Assembly: GCA_003221515.1 (NCBI GenBank)
Contig: QHSI01000098.1
Location: 1 to 64,000, forward strand
Source of the DNA: Candidatus Rokuibacteriota bacterium
GTDB lineage: Bacteria > Methylomirabilota > Methylomirabilia > Rokubacteriales > CSP1-6
Length of the DNA stretch: 64,000 bases
Direction: 5' to 3'
The notes under the pieces were generated by a model. That model ran no database searches and was not told where the DNA came from. It saw only the letters and a program-made list of their open reading frames with translations. Made by a program: the position numbers and the translations under genes. How positions within the stretch are numbered: position 1 is the stretch's first letter; the number at the start of each line of letters is the position of its first letter. Of the stretch, positions 19,714 through 22,700 are shown in pieces.

Positions 19714-22700
19714 GCGCGCGGCTCGACCAGTTCCTCACGGCCGCCGGGCGCGCCGCGGCGACGCGGCGGCGGCGCGCGCTGCGACAGCTCGGCTTCGCCA
19801 ACCCGGACGCGGCGGCCGCGAACATCGAGGGCCTCGTCCCCACGCCGCGCGACGCGGAGCTCCTGGCGGCGGCGTTCCCGCGTCTGGTGACCGAGCTCGC
19901 GGCGGCGCCGGACCCGGACATGGCGCTCAACAACCTCGAGCGCTACACTGCCGTCGTCGACCGCTCGGTGTTCTTCGGCGCCCTCGCCGAGCATCCCGGA
20001 GCGGTGCCGCTGCTGGCGCGGCTGTTCGGATCGAGCCAGGTGCTCGCCGACGCGCTCCGCCGCCGCCCGAACAACCTGGCGTGGCTGCTGGAGCCCACCA
20101 CGATGCGGCTCTGGTTCGCCGAGGACCTGGCGGCGGACCTGGCGCTGACGCTCGGCGCCTTCGAGACGCGCGAGGCGCGGATGAACGCGCTCCGCCGCTT
20201 CAAGTACCGCCACCTGCTGCGGATCGGCGCCCGCGACCTGCTGGGCGACGCCGATCTTTCCCTGACGACCGAGGAGCTCTCGCACCTGGCCGACGCGTGC
20301 CTCGTCGAGGCGCTGCGCATGGCGGACGGAGAAGCGCGCCGCGCCTATGGCGCGCCGATCGCCGCCGACGGCTCGACGGCGGGGCTCGCGGTGATCGCGA
20401 TGGGGAAGCTCGGCGGCGCCGAGCTCAACTACTCGTCCGACATCGACCTGATGTTCGTGTACGACGCCGACGGCGAGACCGCCGGTGGCGAACGCGGGCG
20501 CCTGGCCAACGGGGAGTACTTCGCGCGCGTCTGCCGCGACGTCGTCGCGCTGCTCGAGGAGGCCACGGAGGAAGGCTACGCGTTCCGCGTCGATCTGCGG
20601 CTCCGGCCCGAAGGGCGCATGGGCGGCATCGTCCTGTCGCTCGAGGGGTATCGCGCGTACTACCGGGAGCGCGCCGAGCTGTGGGAGCGGCAGGCACTCA
20701 TCAAGGCGCGCATCGCCGCCGGCGACGCGGCGGTCGGCGCGCGCTATCGCGCGCTGGCCCGCGAGACCGCGTATCGGCCCGGGCTCGACGAGCACGTGGT
20801 GCCGGCCATACGCGACATGAAGGCGCAGATCGACCAGGTGATCGAAGCCAAAGGCAGCGAGGCGACCAACGTCAAGCTCGGGCGCGGGGGGATCCGCGAG
20901 ATCGAGTTCGTCGTCCAGGCCCTCCAGCTCCTCTACGGTGGCGACGACCCGTGGCTGCGCGAGCCGAACTCGTTGAAGGCGATCTTCCGCCTCACCGAGC
21001 GGGGCTACCTGGCGCCCGCCCTCGGCCGGTTGCTCTCGCGGGCGTACGTTCATCTGCGCACCGTCGAGCATCGGCTCCAGATCCTCCACGAGTTCCAGAC
21101 TCACACGCTGCCGGAGGACCCGACGGAGCTCGGGCGCCTGGCGCGGCGGGTCGGCACCCAGGCGCCGCCGCCCCGCGCGGCGCGCGAGTTCGGGACGCTT
21201 CACCGCAAGATCACGGCCGGCGTGCACCGGGCGTTCCGCGAGTTCTTCGCCGCCCGCGAGGTGCGACCGCGACGCAAGCTGCGCCTGCCGAGCCTCACTG
21301 CGCTGCGGGCCACCGGCTTCCGTGACCCCGAGCGGGCGCGCCTTAACTTACAAATGATCCTCGAGGGCCGTCCGCTGGTGCCGTACGCCGCGCACATGGG
21401 CGCCACGCTCGAGCGCCTCTATCCGATGCTCATCGACGCCTTGTGGAAGAGCCCCGATCCCGACGAGGCGCTGCACCAGTTCGAGCGGTTCTTCGCGGCT
21501 ACCGGGCCGCGCGCCGGGCTCGTCGAGCTGCTCGTGAACCCGGAGCTGCTCCTGGGCCTCGTCAAGGTCTGCGCCGGCGGCGATCTCCTCACCGAGCTGC
21601 TGATCGCCCAGCCCGAGCTGCTCGCGTCGCTGGCGAGCCCCGAGCGGCTCCTGCGCCGGAAATCCAGACCCGACTTCCGCGCGGCGATGGCGTCGGTGTT
21701 CGCGCCGGGAACCACGCCGGCCGATCGGCGCGATCGGCTGCGCCGGGCGAAGCAGGCCGAAGAGCTGGCCGTCGTCTGGCGCTACGTCCTGGGTATCACG
21801 ACCATCGACGGCTACGCGCGCGAGATGACCGCGCTCGCGGAGGCGACGCTCGCGGCCGGCTGGCTCCTGGCCCAGGAGCCGCTGCTCGAGCGCCACGGCG
21901 TGCCGCGCGATGCGTCCGGCAAGTTCGTTCCCGCCGTCATCGTGGGGCTGGGCAAGCTCGGTGGACGCGAGCTGGTCACCGGCTCCGACCTCGACCTGTT
22001 CTGCGTCTTCGCCGAGGACGGCGCGACCGACGGCGCCGATCGGATCGACGCGCACTGGTTCTACAGCCTCGCGGTCGAGCGGTTGGCCAGCGTGCTCGGC
22101 GACATCACGGCGGCTGGCATCGCGTTCCCGGTCGACCTGCGCCTGCGGCCCGGCAGCAAGGGCAGTGGGTTCGCCGCGAGCGTGGCGGCGCTGGAGCAGT
22201 ACTATCTGGAGCATGGCGACCTGTGGGAGCGGCAGACCTTGACCCGGGCGCGACTGATCCTCGGCGACCGTACGCTCGCGCGGCGCGTTCGGGCCGCGCT
22301 GCGCCAGCTCGTCTACGGCGACGCGCTGCCGCGCGCGGCGCTCGCCGTGCGCGCCGCAAGCCGTCGCGGGGCTGGGGCCCCGCCGGCTGAGGCGCGCCTA
22401 TTATTCAAAGAGATCGTCGAGGTGCGGGCGCGGATGGAACGCGAGCTCGGTCGCGAGACGCGCGGGCGCCTGCACGTCAAGTACGGCCGCGGCGGTCTCG
22501 TCGACATCGAGTTCCTCGCCCAGGCGCTCCAGCTCGCCCACGGCCGCGACCACGTCGAGGTGCGGCGATTCGCCACGACGACGGCGCTCGCCGGTCTGGC
22601 ACGCGCCGGCGCGCTCGAGCCCACCGCCGCGGCCGAGCTCGCCGAGCGCTACCGGTTTCTGCGGCGCGTGTCCGCCTCGCTCCGCCTGCTCGGCGCGCGC

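Follow-up and report, generated by a model that had tools for sequence, protein, structure and literature searches.

The stretch of DNA analysed here, hereafter the window, comprises the first 64,000 nucleotides of contig QHSI01000098.1 from a genome of Candidatus Rokubacteria (G000; 5.1 Mb in 191 contigs), and 94.7% of it was called as coding by a codon-usage gene caller made for this analysis. Among its genes is glnE, which encodes a glutamate-ammonia ligase adenylyltransferase and harbours, in frame, a short palindromic element that also occurs elsewhere in the window (Table 1). An initial annotation had described this element as a repeat of about 55 bp at positions 22347-22402, adding around 18 codons to the gene and recurring near positions 28910 and 33455. 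The location and the three copies were confirmed, whereas the size had to be corrected, the element being 61 bp long (22344-22404) and the gain amounting to 21 codons. All three copies lie on the forward strand, and the 22-base left half of the element starts at positions 22356, 28919 and 33464 with 0-1 mismatches; these three matches compare with 0.04 expected in shuffled sequence, and three or more were found in none of 100 shuffles.

Orthologues of glnE were recovered in 36 of 39 relatives. In the protein alignment, a block of 21 residues is present only in G000 and in its sister species G002, while it is absent from the six other congeners (G003-G008) and from all the more distant relatives aligning there; G009 is not covered at the block and the frame of G001 is broken at that point. 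At the DNA level, the gain is exactly 63 bp in comparison with every orthologue considered, and it consists of the 61-bp element and a duplicated TC: the empty site reads GCGC-TC-AAGGAG in G004 and G008, and the filled site reads GCGC-TC-[61 bp]-TC-AAAGAG. The inserts of G000 and G002 differ at two positions, both synonymous. Judged from these comparisons, the copy was acquired in the common ancestor of the two species. A separate observation concerns glnE of G001 and G013 (loci L053 and L057), whose matches fall in two reading frames near the 3' part, pointing to a frameshift which may reflect either an assembly error or a pseudogene.

Placed on the alignment, the insert lies after the second nucleotidyltransferase-like domain of GlnE and before the helix opening with KEIxEVRxRME, and the segment added is poor in bulky residues. 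The intact reading frames suggest that the insert is translated, and it would probably form a disordered loop that leaves GlnE largely unaffected.

Table 1. Coordinates of glnE and of the three copies of the palindromic element in the window
Feature	Position	Strand	Basis
glnE, glutamate-ammonia ligase adenylyltransferase, 1028 residues, host gene of the insertion	19887..22973	+	Pfam PF03710 (E=1.5e-117) and PF08335 (E=1.5e-48)
61-bp palindromic element within glnE, residues 820-840	22344..22404	+	Covariance model, 84.7 bits; 63-bp gain in comparison with orthologues
Left-hand TC of the apparent 2-bp target duplication	22342..22343	+	Empty and filled sites
Right-hand TC of the apparent 2-bp target duplication	22405..22406	+	Empty and filled sites
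Intergenic copy, 60 bp (one loop base deleted), in the RNase J leader (gene at 28979-30634), 13 bp ahead of the start codon	28907..28966	+	Sequence match; orthologous copy included in the matching sequence of G002
Copy overlapping the 3' end of the minus-strand gene 33506-34531	33452..33512	+	Covariance model; orthologous site of G007 without the element

Both checks proposed in the initial annotation had a positive outcome, as the alignment of GlnE from relatives returned a clean in-frame gain and the genome-wide search for the consensus uncovered a family with coding as well as intergenic copies. The 18-base core is matched 116 times in G000, compared to 10 times for a reversed control pattern, and a covariance model built from 31 copies recovered at least 130 among 150 candidates scored, these copy counts being lower bounds. 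On a broader scale, of 95 genomes from the phylum, 41 proved to contain the element, each of them within one order: it occurs in all eight congeners, in many genera of the family and, outside the family, in a single member of a second family of that order, and it was not found in the other families of the phylum represented among the 95 genomes. An exact pattern scan of GTDB genomes gave only Candidatus Rokubacteria/Rokuibacteriota among the matches listed. The genomes with known names are all metagenome-assembled. Seven loci containing copies gave no match to any Rfam 15 model at E values up to 1, and none of the papers searched described such a repeat in Rokubacteria.

Alanine-, arginine-, glycine- and proline-rich loops arise easily in GC-rich genomes, and the glnE segment might on these grounds be taken for an old lineage-specific loop which resembles the repeat through base composition or convergence. 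Shared GC bias, which the initial annotation had itself raised, is excluded by the shuffles and by the reversed-pattern counts, and these refute the explanation as a whole. Moreover, the glnE copy is identical to the repeat core at 37 of 39 bases, including a paired G-C to A-T change by which the pairing of the stem is preserved, and its gain equals exactly the 63-bp unit of the family, the same unit being carried by five other genes. We attach practically no credence to a loop of independent origin.

When 141 single copies are compared position by position, conservation sets in abruptly at -19 and stops at +9, on either side of the core, delimiting an element of 61 bp with the consensus G(T/C)(A/G)GTGCGCGCCGCAGGCC-GTCGCGGGGCTGGGGCCCCGCCGGCCGAGGCG-CG(C/G)CTATAAA and the end sequences GTAGTGCGCGCC and GGCGCGSCTAYAAA. 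Its 5' foot, at consensus positions -19 to -16, may be likened to the GTAG or GGAG tetranucleotide of REP elements (G in 91%, T/C in 77%, A/G in 72% and G in 87% of the copies), and tandem copies follow one another with a period of 63 bp (61 + 2). The element folds into a hairpin of about -40 kcal/mol (z=-2.0), for which covariation was assessed across 11 genera: 89% of the cells are paired, the covariation score is 0.184 compared to 0.062 when shuffled, and both sides have changed in 78 cells, as opposed to 9.2 in shuffled and 3-11 in slid controls. Outside the genus of the window, two adjacent G-C pairs of the outer stem are replaced, jointly, by tandem G.A/A.G mismatches in most copies (L345-L428, from the other genera of the family), a paired change which hints at recognition of the folded strand.

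Such an anatomy recalls repetitive extragenic palindromic (REP) elements, which are moved by REP-associated tyrosine transposases (RAYT, of the Y1 HUH type). The resemblance lies in the imperfect hairpin with conserved bulges, perhaps in the G-T/C-A/G-G motif at the 5' foot, close to the REP tetranucleotide GTAG, in the high copy number and in the mostly extragenic location. However, the RAYT domain PF01797 is absent from G000 and from all eight congeners despite the abundance of the element, whereas those family members which do encode Y1 proteins have few or no copies, and multiplication of the copies yields direct tandem repeats, in contrast to the inverted pairs typical of REP. A REP element driven by RAYT is not supported, because PF01797 is missing from all nine genomes of the genus, and we consider this origin very unlikely.

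The element is also found in frame in five genes other than glnE, and wherever the gain was measured it amounts to 21 codons or a multiple thereof. An ABC transporter ATPase of G000 (L226:1324-2217) contains two tandem antisense units, by which it exceeds its orthologue in L125 by 42 residues, inserted between the Walker B side and the VTHD switch with the switch histidine. A receiver-like protein of the same genome (L194) has two sense units, the comparison with empty orthologues being confined to glnE and the other four genes; its name is tentative, because no Pfam hit was obtained with or without the inserts. Three sense units (+63 residues) occur in a glycogen-debranching enzyme of G029, and one antisense unit (+21 residues) in a hydantoinase B of G075. 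For HemW, five loci of the genus g19 could be compared (L449, L450, L451, L452 and L455), with no unit in G079, one in G026 and G075, and two in G067 and G080; the number of units inside this gene evidently shifts on a short time scale between close species. In-gene copies in L161 and L343 were judged to reflect miscalled gene starts and were removed.

All four genes with sense copies use one and the same frame, although this is the sense frame least often free of stops (52%, compared to 74% and 85% for the others). This shared use, together with the synonymous nature of the differences between the glnE inserts of G000 and G002, is consistent with translation under protein-level selection, and the choice of frame would fit selection for a small, flexible and hydrophilic segment (n=4).

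Copies within genes are nonetheless the minority. Of the 117 distinct copies in G000, 103 fall between genes and the others mostly overlap gene ends, deep in-gene loci numbering only three of about 112, though approximately 89% of contig C29 is coding. Where neighbouring genes are co-directional, sense copies outnumber antisense copies in the gaps by 50:17 in G000 (p=7e-5) and by 85:24 in the other loci examined, mostly from congeners (p=4e-9). Furthermore, 92 of about 290 copies are in sense and lie 15-30 nt upstream of a start codon, as opposed to 4.7% expected for random intergenic positions. Most often, the element sits behind the preceding stop or promoter and ahead of a pre-existing ribosome-binding site: where filled and empty sites were paired, the ribosome-binding site predates the insertion, as does a -10-like box in some cases. 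A role of the element as a promoter was considered and rejected, its TATAAA-like tail falling about 10-14 nt before the start codon, which is too close for a leader with a ribosome-binding site.

The leader position and the sense bias could derive from target choice, from purging or from a benefit to the mRNA. According to the last of these, the repeat would primarily be a cis-acting RNA hairpin of 5' leaders, serving as an mRNA stabiliser which blocks 5' exonucleolytic decay or as a modulator of translation, and selected in sense ahead of ribosome-binding sites, with the in-gene copies as by-products of its spread. Both sense biases, the excess of copies at 15-30 nt, the strong covariation of the stem and the ribosome-binding sites already in place at empty sites are in line with this explanation, but the same bias could be given by a target preference or by the purging of harmful orientations. 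Moreover, the downstream gene is oppositely oriented for about one quarter of the intergenic copies, the element is often missing at orthologous genes, copies in coding sequences occur in both orientations and no Rfam family was matched. A primary function in leaders is a possibility to which we give some weight, while holding it to be somewhat improbable; it is compatible with mobility and competes mainly over function.

Within the window, the gene downstream of the first intergenic copy encodes RNase J (Pfam PF22505/PF17770), and it is a matter of speculation that the leader copy might protect this mRNA from 5' decay. A -10-like TACGAT was noted by eye at 28885-28890, about 17 bp upstream of the same copy. 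As for the third copy of the window, its CTA provides the TAG stop of the minus-strand gene which it overlaps, and an overlap with the final codons of a gene was noticed for several further copies.

Pairs of filled and empty sites give an insertion length centred on 61-63 bp, and 20 of 141 copies have matching dinucleotides on the two sides of the 61 bp, compared to 10 in shuffled ones (p=0.001), which is suggestive of a 2-bp target duplication; a scan for target duplications of 3-9 bp gave none that stood out. The explanation that we favour, and consider very probable, is that of a non-autonomous palindromic element of 61 bp, similar to miniature inverted-repeat transposable elements (MITEs) and particular to one order of Rokubacteria, which is spreading through the genome and has entered glnE in frame. 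The element and its target duplication would together make up 63 bp, that is 21 codons, with most frames of most copies free of stops. Because of this unit length and of the scarcity of stops, an insertion within a gene adds a segment of 21 residues and the gene is not destroyed. The element would be moved in trans by an enzyme making a short staggered cut of about 2 bp; most hits within genes would have been purged, and the in-gene copies that survive would lie in surface loops.

Several points weigh against this explanation. The 2-bp duplication is statistically weak and its offset was picked from a scan of many offsets, several intergenic pairs have insertion lengths other than 61-63 bp, and the insertion in hydantoinase B (L439) has a 6-bp direct repeat, CTTGGA, on its two sides, as opposed to the 2-bp TC at glnE. 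The sole transposase family searched, Y1/RAYT PF01797, was found in none of the nine genomes of the genus. In addition, the positions of the copies depend on our own gene caller, which works from the sequence alone, and both the transposition and the translation of the element are read from sequence comparison. It is also conceivable, even if we judge it unlikely, that a self-contained hairpin is mobilised in single-stranded form, as DNA or RNA, by an enzyme yet to be described, which would target the stretch upstream of ribosome-binding sites and add 21-codon protein modules as a side effect, their number varying between sister species as it does in HemW (0/1/2).

Among known systems, the Rickettsia palindromic elements (RPEs) are short dispersed palindromic repeats which occupy spacers and have also been inserted, with the frame preserved, into protein-coding genes unrelated to one another (PMC10969869, PMC1950309). 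They are about 150 bp long and form ten families in Rickettsia genomes; in R. conorii, nearly half of the copies are in in-frame fusions, and a similar mechanism in other prokaryotes has been called 'conceivable' (PMC10969869). The analogy with RPEs drawn by the initial annotation holds for behaviour, since the Rokubacteria element is also dispersed, hairpin-forming and in frame within unrelated genes, with gains of 21, 42 or 63 codons in the five further genes, but it does not extend to membership. At 61 bp (63 per insertion), the element falls short of the roughly 100-150 bp of RPEs; it is GC-rich and mostly intergenic with a bias towards sense 5' leaders, whereas in some RPE families nearly half of the copies lie in open reading frames; and it enters genes as one to three tandem units of 21 codons in either orientation. 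Judged against published descriptions, RPEs are the closest precedent, the likeness being one of behaviour and the family a separate one by length and phylum.

MITEs such as Correia, ERIC, RUP and BOX are small non-coding repeats which form hairpins, insert cleanly and are often situated directly upstream of genes (PMC10969869). The Rokubacteria element shares with them the small size, the hairpin, the clean insertion and the frequent position upstream of genes. It differs in that a search limited to PF01797 identified no parental transposon or transposase, in that its target duplication is short and weakly supported, and in that its sequence is unrelated to any Rfam model in the seven loci compared.

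Rickettsia offers the main known cases of protein genes invaded in frame by palindromic repeats, and there the decay of the genome is a ready explanation. Here the same occurs in a free-living soil lineage of a different phylum, whose genomes measure about 4-7 Mb. Its element is shorter, has a unit length exactly divisible by three, and enters genes in either orientation, as a single unit or as a tandem array of two or three. The availability of close empty and filled versions of GlnE, HemW, the ABC ATPase and two metabolic enzymes makes the effect of newly gained protein segments directly testable, and the element itself points to a mobility system yet to be found.
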